From Halalkaliarchaeum sp. AArc-CO (GTDB lineage: Archaea; Halobacteriota; Halobacteria; Halobacteriales; Haloferacaceae): 64,000 nucleotides of DNA. The stretch spans positions 1,302,001 to 1,366,000 of the forward strand of contig NZ_CP087723.1 of NCBI RefSeq assembly GCF_024972735.1, given 5' to 3'. Below are positions 7,476-60,054 of the stretch, piece after piece. The notes beneath the pieces were generated by a model that worked only from the letters and a program-made list of their open reading frames with translations, ran no database searches and was not told the origin of the DNA. Within the stretch, counting starts at the first letter, position 1, and the number at the start of each line of letters is the position of its first letter. Position numbers and translations under genes: made by a program.

Positions 7476-7514
7476 GCCGCTGACCGATAGTTGGCCCCCA
7501 GAGAAGAGCGGAGA

Positions 7515-7850
7515 TCAGGGGCTGGGGGGTATCGACTCCTCGGGAAGGGAATCGAGTATCGCTTCGAGTCGTTCGTGGGGCCGATATCGGACCGTCCCGC
7601 TGTCGGCATCGTATTCGACGACGTCGAAGTCTGCCATCTTCGGGAGATGGTTGTGGTGCAGGTGGAGTGCGATACGGTCCCGCTCCAGATGCGAGTCGTC
7701 CTCCCGGGCCCATTCGGAGTCGTGCAATCGATCCACGAGGGCCTCGACGGTAATCTCACCGTCCTTCGTTTGCCGCAGCTCGCGGACGATTCGGCGCCGC
7801 CGCCGATCGGCGACGAGTTCGAGACACGCGTCGAGGCCCTGACTCGTCAT
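7515..7850 (-). CDS. Small winged-helix protein (DUF7344-like)
   Basis: 111 aa. The sequence reads as one compact winged-helix domain: an N-terminal helix with DRRRRRIVRELRQ, a helix-turn-helix around the VEALVDRLHD segment, then HLHHNHLPKMADFDVVEYD and a strand pair with VRYRPHERLEAIL. This pattern (helices, then HHxHLPKL, then DYD) is typical of a very large haloarchaeal family of small transcription regulators. It stands alone between convergent and divergent neighbours. Its target is unknown. The family number is from memory and should be verified by HMM search. Confidence 0.75.
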   Translation of the reverse strand: MTSQGLDACLELVADRRRRRIVRELRQTKDGEITVEALVDRLHDSEWAREDDSHLERDRIALHLHHNHLPKMADFDVVEYDADSGTVRYRPHERLEAILDSLPEESIPPSP

Positions 7851-7958
7851 ACAGTATCATAGACCTGCCCGTCACATCAACCAGCCTGGTTTCCCACTCC
7901 GAATATTTTTTCATTAACCGAGTGACACCCTGTCGACGAGGCTCGCGCTGTCGACATT

Positions 7959-8402
7959 TCAGCTATCGTCGTGTGGATCGCCGTCCCGAATCGTGCCGAT
8001 CCCCTGGCGCGCCAGTTCTGTGACGGCATACCCCCGTCGACCGTCGACAGTCGCCTCCTCGATCAGTCCGGCAGCGCGAAACTCCGACAGCGCCCCGTGC
8101 AGGTCGGACTCACAGAGATCGACGGCGTCGAGCAACTCGCGGGCCGAGACGCGCTCCCTGTCGACGAGTTCGACGAGTAGTCCGAGAGTCCGCTCGTCGT
8201 GAACGGCCGTGAGTACTACCCGCACAGGTTCCGGGACCCCGCTCGCGGCCACTGACAGTGGCGACTCGCCGGAGACGGGTTCCAGCGACGTGTTCGGCAG
8301 GTGGGCGGTCTCGCCGGTGGCCGGGTCCCGAACGAGACTGGCGTCGGAGGACTCGCGCAACAGCACGTACACCGTGCCGTTCTCGTCACGAACAGTTCTC
8401 AC
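7959..8402 (-). CDS. Haloarchaeal wHTH-type protein (DUF7346-like)
   Basis: 147 aa. The N-terminal 45 residues form a strand-rich segment beginning MRTVRDENGTVYVLL. The rest, from about residue 55, is a winged helix (VLTAVHDERTLGLLVELVDRE, a recognition helix near LLDAVDLCESDLHGAL, a wing near RRGYAVTELA). The start overlaps the stop of the upstream membrane-protein gene by four bases (8399-8402), so the two form one transcript. The fold suggests DNA binding or use as a protein scaffold. No ligand-binding or catalytic residues are visible, and the function is unknown. Confidence 0.65.
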   Translation of the reverse strand: MRTVRDENGTVYVLLRESSDASLVRDPATGETAHLPNTSLEPVSGESPLSVAASGVPEPVRVVLTAVHDERTLGLLVELVDRERVSARELLDAVDLCESDLHGALSEFRAAGLIEEATVDGRRGYAVTELARQGIGTIRDGDPHDDS

Positions 8403-8857
8403 GGATTCGTCACCGCCTCGTCTGTCGGCTCCGATTCAATCGAATCTGTCGGATCTTCCTCGCTCCAGTCGCGTGCGTCGTATTCACGGTAGTACTGATA
8501 CGTCCGAAAGCCGGCGAGGACCCCGACGAGCACCAGCCCGCCGCCGATCCTGGTCATCCCCTCGAAGTACCACACCATGACGCCGAGGCTGAACGCCAAC
8601 AGCGCGAGGTTCAGCGCGACGACGCTGGCGACGAACAGCCGGAGCAGATCCGGATGGACCTCCTGGATCGCCCCCTCGAGCTGTTCGTCCGTGCCGTCCC
8701 CTCCGAAGGTCTGAACCGACGGTGCTTCGGGAATTTCGACGGAACTTGGTTCGATGGAGACCGTTTCCGCGAGGTCGAACCGCTCTGTAAACTCACCGGA
8801 GTCGCCGGACTCGTCGGATTCGTCGACCGTCTTCTCCGCGCCGCCGGTTTCGGTCAC
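8399..8857 (-). CDS. Two-helix membrane protein (DUF7322-like)
   Basis: 152 aa. The first 80 residues are acidic and low in complexity, with no catalytic pattern. Two membrane helices follow (LFVASVVALNLALLAFSLGV and the GGGLVLVGVLAGF region), then a short acidic cytoplasmic tail. There is no signal peptide, so the N-terminal segment is probably cytoplasmic. It is the first gene of a two-gene operon with the wHTH protein and overlaps it by four bases. A membrane-linked regulatory pair is conceivable but is only suggested by the coupling. Confidence 0.65.
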   Translation of the reverse strand: MTETGGAEKTVDESDESGDSGEFTERFDLAETVSIEPSSVEIPEAPSVQTFGGDGTDEQLEGAIQEVHPDLLRLFVASVVALNLALLAFSLGVMVWYFEGMTRIGGGLVLVGVLAGFRTYQYYREYDARDWSEEDPTDSIESEPTDEAVTNP

Positions 8858-23192: not shown

Positions 23193-23265
23193 GCCGGAGT
23201 AGCTCAGCTGGCAGAGCGAATCCTTCGTAAGGATTAGGTCGAGGGTTCAAATCCCTCCTCCGGCT
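23193..23265 (+). tRNA. tRNA-Thr (anticodon CGT)
   Basis: 73 nt fold as a full cloverleaf. The acceptor stem is GCCGGAG/CTCCGGC with discriminator T, the D-arm contains AGCTCAGCTGG, the anticodon stem is AATCC/GGATT around loop TTCGTAA (anticodon CGT, reads ACG), and the T-arm is GAGGG-TTCAAAT-CCCTC. CCA is not encoded. TATA-like CCTTATTG lies about 35 bp upstream. The 3' end seems to be an integration target: a similar 3'-terminal sequence recurs at about 23352-23373 and 26268-26289. Confidence 0.96.
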
Positions 23266-23276
23266 CTTCTGACGGA

Positions 23277-23367
23277 ACGAAGTGGAGTCGAAGAGACGCG
23301 TGAGGGATTTGAATCAGGGAGTGCAGCGAGCGTAGCGAGCGAAACGACCGTGGTTCACACTCCCTCC
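23277..23367 (+). repeat. 91-bp direct repeat, left copy (next to tRNA-Thr)
   Basis: Identical over 91 bp to 26193-26283, starting 11 bases after tRNA-Thr. Its right end (GGTTCACACTCCCTCC, then TCCGG) resembles the T-arm and acceptor 3' half of that tRNA. With the right copy it brackets 2.8 kb of unrelated DNA, as expected for the two ends of an integrated element or a recombination scar. Confidence 0.93.
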
Positions 23368-23979: not shown

Positions 23980-25287
23980 CTAGGATTGTTGCTCCTCTCC
24001 GGGACCGAGGTCCTGCACAACCTCTTGGCAGCCCTCCGTCACGGGACAAACCATCTCTCGGGAAAACTGATCGCTGTCCCCTCCGGCAGCTAGGTAGAGG
24101 TACTCTTCGTCGGTAAAGACGCCGAACTGGCCGTTCACATTTTGGCTGAGTAAATACTCCACAGCGAGCCCGATAATCTCGCCGTACACGCCTCCAAGTG
24201 AGCGACCTGCCGCGTTCGAAAGCAACGAGGCGCCCCGACGCAAATTGTACTCGGAGAGCTCGTGGAGAGCGCCACCGAGTTCGAGAAGACCGGTCACGGT
24301 CCGGTCGTCCAGCGGAAAATCCGCCGTTCGATCGACCTTCACGTGCTGGCGGACGACCGTCGTCGCTATTGCGGCAACGAACGTGGAGTGATAGTTGTCC
24401 ACCACGACGTCAGCGTCGTCCGGACCCGTGACGTCTCGATGGGCTTGGCGGAACTCGGGACCTGGGACGAATCCCAATGAATCCGATCGGACGTATACCC
24501 AGGACAGTGCCAGGTACTCGATCTCGCGGGGTAACTGGTCCTGTAACACACCGGCAACGAGAAGTTCCAGGACGACGTCGGTGTTACCTTCTGCCAGGTA
24601 TCGAAGGATCAGCGCGATCAGTGTCGTACGGAGGTCATAGGGAGCAGGGTCCGAAGAAAAAGCCGGATGGGGGATCCCGAAGTTTCGATAATAGAAGACG
24701 TTGTGAGTGAGAGCGTAAGCGTCCTGGTCGATAGAGTTGACGACGTCGAACTGTCGGTTTAGACAGCTTGTGGCGATGACGGCGTCCGGGTTCAGCCTGT
24801 CAGTCTCGTATCCGTACGCGCAACAGAAAAACCACAGTTCCAGCAGCCGAAACGGTGGTAACTCGACGCTCCAGACTGCCGGTTGCTCCAGAACTCGCTC
24901 CGGAACCGTTTTCGCGTCCGCGTCCAGGACTCCGGTCTCATTGGCGTAAAGGAAAGCAGCGTAATAAAGGAGGAACTCCCTCGGATGGCGAATCGGAAGC
25001 CGGTAATATCGTGGGTCGTTGATTCGCTTGACGACCCTGTCGGCGTAGTTGACGTCACCGCCGCGATGTCCATCTCGCACGTAGAGGTACAGACAGAGTT
25101 CCGAGAACGCTTTTCGTCGGAAATGCCTGTCGTCTTCGTCGTCCCAGGCGAGCGGATCGAACCGGTTGACATGGTTGGCGATCCATCGGTCCGCCAGAGT
25201 GTCGATCTCGGAAACCACATCAAAAAATTCTTCGGGAGACGTCGGATAGGTCACCTTCAACCGCTTCCCTGCCTTCACCTGCCTCAT
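23980..25287 (-). CDS. Helical protein of unknown function, possibly DUF6895-like, partner of the Cys-tail peptide
   Basis: 435 aa, almost entirely alpha-helical, with no signal peptide, membrane helix or nucleotide-binding loop. Conserved-looking patches are DAYALTHNVFYYRNFG (about 188-203) and DNYHSTFVAA (about 295-304), each with a His in an aromatic setting that could be catalytic or metal-binding. The phrase 'D-x-YALTH, then Y-x-x-x-FG' reminds me of DUF6895, an actinobacterial family; this is memory only and needs a profile search. The start is 15 nt after the stop of the 76-aa peptide gene, so the two form an operon. A hairpin spans the junction and may lower expression of this gene relative to the peptide. 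The likely role is modification, export or sensing of the peptide, inferred from linkage alone. Confidence 0.7.
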   Translation of the reverse strand: MRQVKAGKRLKVTYPTSPEEFFDVVSEIDTLADRWIANHVNRFDPLAWDDEDDRHFRRKAFSELCLYLYVRDGHRGGDVNYADRVVKRINDPRYYRLPIRHPREFLLYYAAFLYANETGVLDADAKTVPERVLEQPAVWSVELPPFRLLELWFFCCAYGYETDRLNPDAVIATSCLNRQFDVVNSIDQDAYALTHNVFYYRNFGIPHPAFSSDPAPYDLRTTLIALILRYLAEGNTDVVLELLVAGVLQDQLPREIEYLALSWVYVRSDSLGFVPGPEFRQAHRDVTGPDDADVVVDNYHSTFVAAIATTVVRQHVKVDRTADFPLDDRTVTGLLELGGALHELSEYNLRRGASLLSNAAGRSLGGVYGEIIGLAVEYLLSQNVNGQFGVFTDEEYLYLAAGGDSDQFSREMVCPVTEGCQEVVQDLGPGEEQQS

Positions 25288-25294
25288 TGTTCCA

Positions 25295-25318
25295 GTGTGA
25301 GCCTACTTTTTTTCACAC
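25295..25318 (-). promoter_or_regulatory. Intercistronic hairpin between the peptide and its partner gene
   Basis: The inverted repeat GTGTGA/TCACAC with a 12-nt loop encloses the last codons and stop of the peptide gene and lies just before the start of the 435-aa gene. Such hairpins commonly set an excess of precursor over its enzyme in peptide operons. The stem is only 6 bp, so this is a suggestion. Confidence 0.35.
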
Positions 25319-25533
25319 GAATTACAGACGACGTAACAGCCACTGACGACACAGTAGTTTCCCGAATCCATCGGCTCAAAGTTTCCTTCTTGGGTCGCCT
25401 TCAACAGGTCCTCCAGCGTCAGATCCTGTTCTTGAAGTAGTTCCCTGATCTCCGCCACTGCATCAGGGATTGCTTCCATCTCCCTCGCTGGCGGGTCACG
25501 CTCCAATCGTGTCGACGGGTCTTCCGATGTCAT
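25303..25533 (-). CDS. 76-aa peptide with Cys-rich C-terminus, candidate RiPP precursor
   Basis: 76 aa in two parts. Residues 1-58 are acidic and mostly helical (DAVAEIRELLQEQDLTLEDLL), like a leader peptide. Residues 59-76 read NYCVVSGCYVVCNSCEKK: four cysteines spaced C-x4-C-x3-C-x2-C (61, 66, 70, 73) among Val, Tyr, Ser and Gly, ending in two lysines. Cysteine is very scarce in haloarchaeal proteins, so four in the last 16 residues stand out. The TATA box is about 28 nt before the ATG, so the transcript should be leaderless. No LanM, radical-SAM or YcaO gene is nearby. The alternative is a small zinc-binding or regulatory protein. No signal peptide is present. Confidence 0.65.
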   Translation of the reverse strand: MTSEDPSTRLERDPPAREMEAIPDAVAEIRELLQEQDLTLEDLLKATQEGNFEPMDSGNYCVVSGCYVVCNSCEKK

Positions 25534-25554
25534 CGCGTTTGATGTCGTGCGAGG

Positions 25555-25607
25555 TCTGTATATAGGTAACTAGTGACATTCGTGCAACGCATGAAATTTG
25601 TGCAACG
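25555..25607 (-). promoter_or_regulatory. Leaderless promoter and paired upstream sites of the peptide operon
   Basis: On the minus strand, CCTATATACAG (25555-25566) lies about 28 nt before the ATG, the distance expected for a haloarchaeal TATA box of a leaderless mRNA. Immediately upstream, the 8-mer GTGCAACG (plus-strand reading) occurs twice, at 25582-25589 and 25600-25607, 18 bp apart (under two helical turns). This suits binding of a dimeric activator or repressor. Operon-specific regulation is an inference. Confidence 0.5.
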
Positions 25608-26192: not shown

Positions 26193-26283
26193 ACGAAGTG
26201 GAGTCGAAGAGACGCGTGAGGGATTTGAATCAGGGAGTGCAGCGAGCGTAGCGAGCGAAACGACCGTGGTTCACACTCCCTCC
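26193..26283 (+). repeat. 91-bp direct repeat, right copy
   Basis: Identical to 23277-23367. It ends TCCCTCC and then CCGGCTT, again similar to the 3' end of tRNA-Thr. It marks the right border of the 2.9-kb inserted block. Confidence 0.93.
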
Positions 26284-57236: not shown

Positions 57237-58718
57237 ATGTCGCTGACCCTCGACGAACTCGACTCTCATCTGTTCAAGTGCGCTGACATCATCCGTGACG
57301 CCGTCGACTCGACCGACTATAAGGACTTTATTTTACCACTCGTATATTACAAAACTATCTCGGACAACTTCGAGGTCCAGTACCGACAGTACGTCGAGGA
57401 GTACGGCGAAGAGTACGCCCGTCGACCGAACCTCTACGACGTCCCCTACGTCCCCGAGGGCTACACCTGGGAGGACCTCCGGGCGGTCAACGAGAACGTC
57501 GACGAGGCGATCAACGACGCCTTCGACGCGCTCCGGGAGGCAAACGACGGCGAGGTCGAGGGGGTGTTCCGCGCCGACTACGTCGCAGAGGACGCCCTGA
57601 CCGACGACCGACTCACGCGGCTGATCGAACATCTCACCACCTACGACCTCGACACCGACAGCATCCCCGCCGACATGCTCGGCGAGGCGTACATGGACCT
57701 CGTGCGCCACTTCGCCGAGGAGGAGGGCAAGTCCGGCGGGCAGTTCTTCACACCGCCCCACATCGTCCAGCTGATGGTCCGACTACTCGCGCCCTTCGAG
57801 GACGGTGACACGTTTCACGACCCGACTGTGGGGTCAGGCGGGATGCTCGTCGAAGCGGCCACCCACTACCGCGACGAACAGGGCGGCGATCCCTCGAAGC
57901 TCACGTTCACGGGCCAGGAGATCAACCCCGACATCGCTGCCATCGCCAAAATGAACCTCTCGATCCACGGCCTCAGCGGGCGGATCGAGCGCGAGGACTC
58001 CCTCCTGCGACCACAGTTCACCGAGAACGGTTCGCTGACCAGGTTCGACTATGTCCTTGCCAATTTCCCGTTCTCGGCGGACTGGCAGAAGGACGAACTC
58101 CAGGACGACACCTACGGGCGCTTCGACTGGCACGAGAAGCTCCCCCGAGCCGACCGGGGCGACTACGCATTCATCATGCACATGGCCGAGCAGTTGAACG
58201 AGACCGGCCAGGCAGCGATCGTCATTCCCCACGGCGTGCTGTTCCGGAAGCACGAGAGCCGGTATCGGGAGCCGATGATCGACGACGACCTCGTCGAGGC
58301 CGTGGTCGGGTTGCCCGAGAACCTCTTCCAGAACAACTCCATCCCGAGCGCGATCCTGGTGTTGAACCGCGACAAGCCCGCGGAACGTACCGATCAAGTT
58401 CAGTTCATCCATGCCGCCGACGAGGCGTTCTACGAGGAGCTGAGCAACCAGAACGAGCTGACCGAAGCGGGGATCGACCACATCGTCGAGAACTTCGACG
58501 GCTGGACGACCGAGGAGCGGGTGAGTCGGACGGTGTCGGTCGAGGAGATCCGCGAGAACGACTACAACCTGAACATCGCGCTGTACGTCGACACGACCGA
58601 ACCGGAGGAAGACATCGACGTGGCCGAGGAGTTGGCCGAGTTGCGGGAGTTACAGGCCGAGCGCGACGAGATCGAGGCGCAGATGACCGAGCACATGGAG
58701 GCGCTGAACTATGAGTGA
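57237..58718 (+). CDS. hsdM: Type I restriction-modification methyltransferase subunit
   Basis: 493 aa from the ATG at 57237. The N-terminal HsdM helical domain (LDSHLFKCADIIRDAVDSTDYKDFILPLVYYKTISD) is followed by an N6-adenine methyltransferase fold. SAM motif I is DPTVGSGGMLVEA (about 195), and the catalytic motif IV is NFPF (276-279), a variant of NPPF/NPPY. It methylates the HsdS-defined target to protect host DNA and is needed for cleavage by HsdR. The stop overlaps the hsdS start by 8 bp. A 168-bp gap with one half-altered palindrome separates it from the HTH gene. Confidence 0.95.
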   Translation: MSLTLDELDSHLFKCADIIRDAVDSTDYKDFILPLVYYKTISDNFEVQYRQYVEEYGEEYARRPNLYDVPYVPEGYTWEDLRAVNENVDEAINDAFDALREANDGEVEGVFRADYVAEDALTDDRLTRLIEHLTTYDLDTDSIPADMLGEAYMDLVRHFAEEEGKSGGQFFTPPHIVQLMVRLLAPFEDGDTFHDPTVGSGGMLVEAATHYRDEQGGDPSKLTFTGQEINPDIAAIAKMNLSIHGLSGRIEREDSLLRPQFTENGSLTRFDYVLANFPFSADWQKDELQDDTYGRFDWHEKLPRADRGDYAFIMHMAEQLNETGQAAIVIPHGVLFRKHESRYREPMIDDDLVEAVVGLPENLFQNNSIPSAILVLNRDKPAERTDQVQFIHAADEAFYEELSNQNELTEAGIDHIVENFDGWTTEERVSRTVSVEEIRENDYNLNIALYVDTTEPEEDIDVAEELAELRELQAERDEIEAQMTEHMEALNYE

Positions 58719-60054
58719 GGAGCAGGTGACCCTGGATGATCTTGACGAGGTAGCTGATGAGGCCGGTTCGAGTACGAATGGGTGGCAACAAATCGAAATG
58801 GGGGAGTTAGCCGAATATCAAAACGGAAATGCTTTTAGTAAGAGTGAATGGACCGACGACGGGTATCCCATAATTCGCATCCAGAATCTCACAGGAGAGC
58901 AGGAGGAGTTCAATTATTTCGACGGGGAATTAGAAGATCGCTATAGAGTCAAAAACGGCGACCTTCTTTTGTCGTGGTCAGCCACAATTGATGTTTTCGA
59001 GTGGAATGGGCCAGAGGCGGCTTTGAATCAACACATCTACAGAGTTGACACCACAGACCAGGTAAATGAGATATTCTTCCGGTTCAAGTTAGAAGAACTC
59101 CTTCCACGTTTAGAGGCTCTATCGCACGGGAGTACGATGAAACACGTCCGGAAGGCCGATCTGGTCAATCTTGACGCTGATATTCCACCACTCGAAGAAC
59201 AGCGCAAAATCGCCAGCGTGCTCTACACCGTTGATCAGGCGATTCAGAAGACGGAAGCAATTTCCCAGCAATTATCCACCCTTCGACGAGGGCTTCGTCA
59301 GGATATTTTCAGTGGACAGGTGGGCCGTAGAGATACAAAGAGTACCAGAACTGGTCCAATAAGCATAGAAATCCCACGAGAGTGGGAAGTTAGACCTCTT
59401 GGTGATTTTGTGGATGAGTTTGTCGGCGGTGCCACGTTGTCGAAAGATGATTTCACCGAAAAGGGGGTGAGTGTATTGCCAAAAAAGGCGGTTAATGACA
59501 TCGGAATCGCCGCTGTTGATGGGGACGAACGACAGTTCTGCTCCGAAGATACCGCCCAGGAAAACCAGACGAACTTAGTTGATTCTCAATATCTTATCAC
59601 GGCACTCCGGGATTTGAACGCTGACGCGCCAAGTATCGGTCGGATTGTTAAGATCTCACCTGAATCTAAGTACCCAGATGGTGACCAATTTTTACTCGCC
59701 CAGGGAGTCCATGGGATAAAAACATCCCAGAAAATTCTTAATGATTATCTGATTGAAGTCTCGAACTGCGGTTGGTATCGGAGATACGTGAAGAGTATCT
59801 CGGTCGGAAGTACCCAAATTCACATCCGCAACGATGAGTTTCTTGATATCAAAATTCCGGTTCCACCACTGGAAGAACAGCAGGAAATCGCCACCCGTCT
59901 CCGGGACATCGTACGACTCCAATCTAAGCAGAACAGCTATCGGGACGGTCTCCAACGCCTCAAACAAGGCCTCATGCAGGACCTCCTCTCGGGCGAGGTC
60001 CGCACCCACGACACGGACATCGAGATCGTAGACAAAGTCCTCCAGCATGACTAA
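58711..60054 (+). CDS. hsdS: Type I restriction-modification specificity subunit
   Basis: 447 aa, two target-recognition domains, each followed by a conserved helical region. The repeats PPLEEQRKIASVLYTVDQAIQ (about 160-180) and PPLEEQQEIATRLRDIVRLQ (about 385-405) mark the two half-subunits. The TRD-coding parts (58790-59850) are markedly more AT-rich than hsdM and hsdR, which fits horizontal exchange of specificity domains. It binds a bipartite DNA site; the target cannot be read from sequence. The start overlaps hsdM, and the stop overlaps hsdR by 8 bp. Confidence 0.95.
   Translation: MSEEQVTLDDLDEVADEAGSSTNGWQQIEMGELAEYQNGNAFSKSEWTDDGYPIIRIQNLTGEQEEFNYFDGELEDRYRVKNGDLLLSWSATIDVFEWNGPEAALNQHIYRVDTTDQVNEIFFRFKLEELLPRLEALSHGSTMKHVRKADLVNLDADIPPLEEQRKIASVLYTVDQAIQKTEAISQQLSTLRRGLRQDIFSGQVGRRDTKSTRTGPISIEIPREWEVRPLGDFVDEFVGGATLSKDDFTEKGVSVLPKKAVNDIGIAAVDGDERQFCSEDTAQENQTNLVDSQYLITALRDLNADAPSIGRIVKISPESKYPDGDQFLLAQGVHGIKTSQKILNDYLIEVSNCGWYRRYVKSISVGSTQIHIRNDEFLDIKIPVPPLEEQQEIATRLRDIVRLQSKQNSYRDGLQRLKQGLMQDLLSGEVRTHDTDIEIVDKVLQHD

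Follow-up and report, generated by a model that had tools for sequence, protein, structure and literature searches.

A small island in the haloarchaeon Halalkaliarchaeum sp. AArc-CO carries a gene for a 76-aa precursor-like peptide directly followed by a gene for a 435-aa protein of the DUF6895 family. The reading we favour, and consider rather probable, is a two-gene system for a ribosomally made, modified peptide (RiPP), with DUF6895 as the sole modification enzyme at the locus and probably an epimerase; here we infer the chemistry. The precursor–enzyme relation, taken alone, is very likely. The locus has the marks of a RiPP pair: a precursor gene lies beside a modification enzyme gene, an arrangement that recurs across genomes (archaeal and bacterial loci), and a conserved leader is combined with a variable core. 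One DUF6895 epimerase has been reported; the stand-alone use of such an enzyme with a precursor in archaea appears to be new, as it was not found in the literature searched.

A peptide gene and its partner on a tRNA-linked island

The window is the whole 64,000-nt stretch of DNA that was analysed, and coordinates are positions within it. Its relevant features are as follows.

23193–23266 (+): tRNA-Thr (CGT), likely insertion site; the left repeat starts 10 nt after it
23277–23367 (+): left-hand boundary of the island, formed by one copy of a perfect 91-nt direct repeat
23980–25287 (−): 435-aa DUF6895 protein, candidate peptide epimerase (Pfam PF21836, alignment, AlphaFold2 model)
25303–25533 (−): 76-aa precursor-like peptide (ORF, codon score, homology to the L045 peptide)
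25303–25374 (−): putative core PMDSGNYCVVSGCYVVCNSCEKK (residues 54–76) plus stop codon (sequence; CxxSGC common to L045)
25559–25565 (−): TATA box at leaderless distance
25578–25589 (−): CGTTGCACGAAT, tandem direct repeat copy 1, candidate regulator site
25596–25607 (−): CGTTGCACAAAT, tandem direct repeat copy 2, 18 bp from copy 1, candidate regulator site
26193–26283 (+): right-hand copy of this 91-nt repeat, offset from the left one by 2916 bp

The peptide has the sequence MTSEDPSTRLERDPPAREMEAIPDAVAEIRELLQEQDLTLEDLLKATQEGNFEPMDSGNYCVVSGCYVVCNSCEKK. Of the six frames, the one encoding it has the highest codon score, at 0.062 per codon, and the remaining five lie between −0.21 and −0.53; the 435-aa gene scores 0.106. 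The leader, residues 1 to about 53, is acidic and helical and carries the motif DLTLEDLLKATQEGNF, with [DENS]LT at residue 37; the putative leader/core border lies at about residue 53/54. In the tail, Cys61, Cys66, Cys70 and Cys73 are spaced C-x4-C-x3-C-x2-C. The two ORFs are on the same (−) strand and 15 nt apart. They also share one frame, with one TAG and five codons between them (25287–25305, −), such that read-through would yield a fusion.

An earlier note on this DNA, made from the letters alone, had described this Cys-tailed peptide and the helical protein 15 nt after it, and both descriptions hold. It had likewise pointed to paired 8-mers upstream of a TATA box at leaderless distance. 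The first base of the TATA box is indeed at −31 from the ATG, and the 8-mers belong to a pair of 18-nt units arranged in tandem directly upstream of it. These two are the only matches in the window at up to one mismatch (chance expectation 0.39). A hairpin proposed to span the junction of the two genes did not survive scrutiny: it is at chance level (z = 0.24), with 109 of 200 shuffles folding equally well.

Searches with the peptide against Pfam, NCBIfam and PADLOC returned nothing above cut-off. Across 391 haloarchaeal genomes, a sample that does not include L045, there were weak matches only, mostly within long frames; the best non-self match (E = 2e-4, a segment of a 414-aa frame) was judged to be chance.

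When compared with a same-genus genome, the window is collinear at 88% identity across the tRNA as far as about 23305; collinearity is then lost until about 26410. That genome is without DUF6895, and at the corresponding site the same-genus genome G359 has only the first 28 nt of the repeat (93%), followed by about 3.8 kb of other DNA. G+C is lowered at the island (0.555 in 24–26 kb). Elsewhere in the window, positions 58001–60000 have a G+C of 0.535, below the island value. Judged from the sequence, the pair seems to have been acquired recently at a tRNA hotspot; no gene for an integrase was recognised. Immediately next to the pair, one side encodes an SDR and two small proteins of 82 and 108 aa, and the tRNA is on the other side; the island also includes stretches without recognisable genes. 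No dedicated leader protease or exporter gene was recognised within the island, while such genes are present at several other DUF6895 loci. A dedicated protease or exporter gene is not obligatory for RiPPs.

The whole of the organism's own genome gave no match to DUF4135 (the LanM dehydratase) or to LanC-like proteins. Seven other DUF6895 genomes served as positive controls, with DUF4135 found in five and LanC in four (both in G151, G345, G124 and G147; DUF4135 in G308). On these grounds the locus as LANTHIPEPTIDE was ruled out, and it does not belong to the class II lanthipeptides, whose LanM dehydratase and LanC-like cyclase went undetected in the genome. The absence of the usual modification genes noted earlier is therefore correct for LanM here, but some other archaeal DUF6895 genes do have LanM genes alongside.

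The partner is a DUF6895 protein and a candidate epimerase

The 435-aa protein matches PF21836 with E = 5.1e-39 (134.8 bits against a curated cut-off of 23.8). An alignment of 23 relatives from archaea and bacteria shows no variation at E63, T194, H195, D237, E241, L242 and H300 and almost none at Y299 and K59; the window protein has all of these residues. The AlphaFold2 model, built on rows of archaeal and gammaproteobacterial sequences only, is all-helical (pLDDT 87.1, pTM 0.89). Compared with the PDB, its fold has no match at E ≤ 0.001, and the DUF6895 profile matched none of the PDB sequences. PADLOC did not match the protein either.

The title of Shi et al. (ACS Catal 2026, 10.1021/acscatal.5c08590, PMC13352647) calls a DUF6895 protein a lasso-peptide epimerase. 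From our analysis, the window protein is probably an epimerase too. Its identity to archaeal relatives is about 30%, and to Shewanella and Paraglaciecola proteins 23–25%; because identity is this low, its reaction could differ from the reported one. Because the fold does not resemble any solved structure, a catalytic site cannot be transferred to it. It is nonetheless reasonable to suppose acid/base catalysis by the paired conserved His, Asp and Glu residues.

We also modelled the peptide tethered to the enzyme, reading the peptide stop as Gln solely for tethering. The leader was predicted as two helices with modest confidence and the core as disordered (pLDDT about 30). The model has a core of low confidence and no readable contacts, and so does not constitute docking evidence.

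Small acidic peptides recur upstream of DUF6895 genes

A single-sequence scan of the genome contigs detected no relatives; an alignment scan detected six loci. DUF6895 is rare in haloarchaea, occurring in 8 of 391 genomes of the class, 9 of 392 of the order and 5 of 170 of the same family (overlapping samples), and was absent from viral contigs. Fifteen archaeal loci, the window locus included, were compared. A DUF4135 gene is near DUF6895 in six, accompanied by a LanC-like gene in five (L016, L019, L020, L050 and L051) and without one in L017. The other nine are LanM-free: the window, L012, L013, L014, L015, L018, L045, L049 and L052.

An acidic small ORF on the same strand precedes DUF6895 in eight of these nine LanM-free loci, and in L017; in L014 the DUF6895 gene has no obvious precursor. 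Of the 15 archaeal DUF6895 genes, 9 have an acidic upstream ORF with [DENS]LT; among 157 control genes taken from these loci, 3 do (P 3e-9), two of them ahead of LanM genes. As [DENS]LT was picked after inspection of the loci, the conservative figure is the one that does not require the motif: 9/15 against 23/157 (P 2e-4). The motif is present in all eight precursor families of the LanM-free loci, those lacking a full LanM/LanC pair (product of shuffle probabilities 3e-9). The leaders associated with LanM look different, being of the SxDE/Q..F.E.KH type. This recurrence directly upstream of the enzyme supports the reading as a ribosomal modified peptide put forward in the earlier note.

Precursor copies are arranged in tandem at L015, L017, L012 and L026: L015 has three (...SVALISL or ...WFWINL), L017 four (...AIAWITW and variants) and L012 two. 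Small peptide ORFs also adjoin DUF6895 at the bacterial loci L035–L038. The window leader resembles peptides beside DUF6895 on Kitasatospora, Streptomyces and Pseudalkalibacillus plasmids, and against a profile of bacterial DUF6895-linked leaders only 10 of 5000 shuffles score as well as the window peptide. Two of the plasmid peptides, L035 8741–8938 (Kitasatospora) and L037 4569–4925 (Streptomyces), both before DUF6895, share the core YVLAW(D/E)(K/R)YVLVV, and the archaeal L012 peptide has a similar core, YIAGWSDWVLAV. In Shewanella salipaludis (L026, 3611–5705 and 5962–7251), a 72-aa peptide occurs in three near-identical copies in tandem, together with two DUF6895 genes; Paraglaciecola (L025) likewise has two DUF6895 genes.

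The nearest relative of the window peptide is a 130-aa peptide upstream of DUF6895 in L045, from another genus of the same family. The segments ...IEGIPEDIVDRPLSELTLDDVTRAVDEGGFGLGGAGQTFVICGGSGCAGYDN and MEAIPDAVAEIRELLQEQDLTLEDLLKATQEGNFEPMDSGNYCVVSGC... align with a Smith–Waterman score of 65, a value that neither 5000 shuffles nor 1019 protein tiles attained. The two peptides have the leader LTLxDxxxAxxEGxF in common and differ in their cores, the L045 tail being CxxSGC (CGGSGC) with two Cys only. Each locus is a bare peptide plus DUF6895, with no LanM beside it. For exactly the window peptide, the precursor link is supported by this one clear homologue. In a DUF6895 tree no supported grouping joins the window and L045 enzymes, and so the tree does not support co-descent of enzyme and peptide.

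The check that the earlier note had proposed, a search for homologues of the large protein beside small peptides, thus came out in favour of the pair, with the L045 relative keeping a CxxSGC tail. The idea of a dedicated partner gene stands in that the pairing is recurrent; the partner, however, is not nameless, belonging to a family with an epimerase reported in the title of Shi et al. A Cys tail is found again in L045 but is not general among DUF6895 peptides, most of the others being Cys-free.

DUF6895 neighbourhoods include D-peptidase-type hydrolases

The genes that accompany DUF6895 vary and include LanM, S12 hydrolases, P450 and PKS neighbours; ABC exporter genes or an S9 prolyl-oligopeptidase gene occur in many of the archaeal loci. 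In the LanM/LanC locus L051, DUF6895 is present as two ORFs, apparently a broken copy (7486–8834, −). At L014, an S12 peptidase with a beta-lactamase fold and a Pab87 octamerisation domain (PF00144 + PF13969; 9641–11050, +) is divergent to the adjoining DUF6895 gene, and in Streptomyces fungicidicus (L039) an S12 hydrolase (PF00144) directly follows DUF6895. The stretch 4037–7892 of L039 encodes a P450, a small peptide, two consecutive DUF6895-like proteins and the S12 hydrolase. Pab87 of Pyrococcus acts specifically on D-amino-acid peptides (PMC2651629). Neighbours of this S12 D-peptidase type are circumstantial evidence that fits D-residue chemistry, in the same direction as the literature title.

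Relation to known peptide systems

According to its title, the DUF6895 lasso epimerase of Shi et al. acts on a ribosomal peptide and belongs to the same family, PF21836; the present system differs from that pathway, as far as the title describes it, in its archaeal host and stand-alone precursor, and no lasso cyclase or B-protein gene is among the immediate neighbours of the archaeal pair. MslH, the epimerase of the lasso peptide MS-271, is alike in principle, since it epimerises a ribosomal precursor by non-radical acid/base chemistry while the leader is still attached (PMC10406935). It has a calcineurin-like, Ca(II)-dependent fold with His/Asp dyads (PMC10406935), whereas the DUF6895 model is all-helical and without a PDB match; by fold, DUF6895 is therefore not a relative of MslH.

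In the epipeptides YydF/EpeX, the radical SAM epimerase YydG is likewise the main tailoring enzyme acting on a small precursor. Here the adjacent enzyme is DUF6895 rather than a radical SAM enzyme, and the further genes of the epe operon (epeXEPAB) are missing from the island. The class II lanthipeptides of haloarchaea (PMC10105419, PMC12144867) are haloarchaeal RiPPs as well, and DUF6895 adjoins LanM/LanC at several loci, but LanM and LanC are undetected in this genome. Neither of these two papers mentions DUF families or epimerisation.

Alternative explanations

The two genes might form a precursor/enzyme pair in which archaeal DUF6895 carries out some other reaction on the core, for example at Cys or aromatic residues, or mainly binds the leader. 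Low identity among DUF6895 proteins, the variety of their partners and a fold without a PDB match leave room for this; we nevertheless hold it to be unlikely, as the sole reported member is called an epimerase in the title of its report, the window protein keeps every family-invariant polar residue, and the neighbouring S12 hydrolases of D-peptidase type are consistent with D-residues. Less probable still is a decayed lanthipeptide locus, a former LanM/LanC cluster reduced to precursor and DUF6895. LanM genes adjoin DUF6895 at six archaeal loci, the core has Ser57, Ser64 and Ser72 along with its four Cys, and parts of the island are without recognisable genes. Yet the arrangement is common, with eight other LanM-free loci, and several of the cores are Cys-free, making lanthionine impossible. 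Moreover, L045 has the same leader without LanM beside it, LanM-associated leaders are of another type, and both the codon score and the invariant residues are intact.

It seems very improbable that the peptide, rather than being a product precursor, is a small zinc knuckle that partners the 435-aa protein in a regulatory or structural role. The C-x4-C-x3-C-x2-C pattern could bind metal, and the genes are tightly spaced on one strand. However, there are only two Cys in the L045 peptide, and the majority of the other DUF6895 peptides are Cys-free; the four-Cys site is thus not conserved, which makes such a zinc site unlikely. The predicted disorder of the tail in the tethered model is weak evidence to the same effect. 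A toxin–antitoxin or defence module would suit two genes on a small island with direct repeats around them and a tRNA beside, but neither protein is matched by PADLOC and the relatives sit with exporter, LanM and peptidase genes, leaving this explanation barely credible.

Discussion

In the two-gene RiPP system that we favour, the product of the 76-aa gene would be a precursor whose helical leader is followed by a C-terminal core. DUF6895 would bind and recognise the helical leader and turn at least one core residue from the L into the D form, presumably using the conserved acid/base residues His195, His300, Asp237, Glu241 and Glu63. For cutting off the leader, exporting the peptide and forming whatever disulfides the four Cys may make, the system would then depend on general host enzymes, since the island has no recognised protease or exporter gene dedicated to these steps. 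The role of the product would most likely be antagonism or signalling between haloarchaea.

A wider and more tentative proposal, which we put at rather less than even chances, is that haloarchaea make D-amino-acid ribosomal peptides from a two-gene mobile module of precursor and DUF6895. This would be a RiPP class with a non-radical epimerase, of a fold without a PDB match, as the sole modification enzyme at the locus. Its products would supply the archaeal CubicO/Pab87 D-peptidases with a natural substrate, and these peptidases would be its maturation or immunity counterpart.

Judging by the two-gene island, archaea may produce D-amino-acid peptides of their own, and with unusually simple machinery. 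With precursor genes, a candidate enzyme with few invariant residues and natural haloarchaeal variants to hand, the proposal can be tested in Haloferax with two genes. A search rule of DUF6895 plus an upstream [DENS]LT peptide would uncover RiPPs that mining based on LanM, YcaO or radical SAM would miss. The finding also suggests that DUF6895 serves lanthipeptide, lasso and stand-alone precursors alike.
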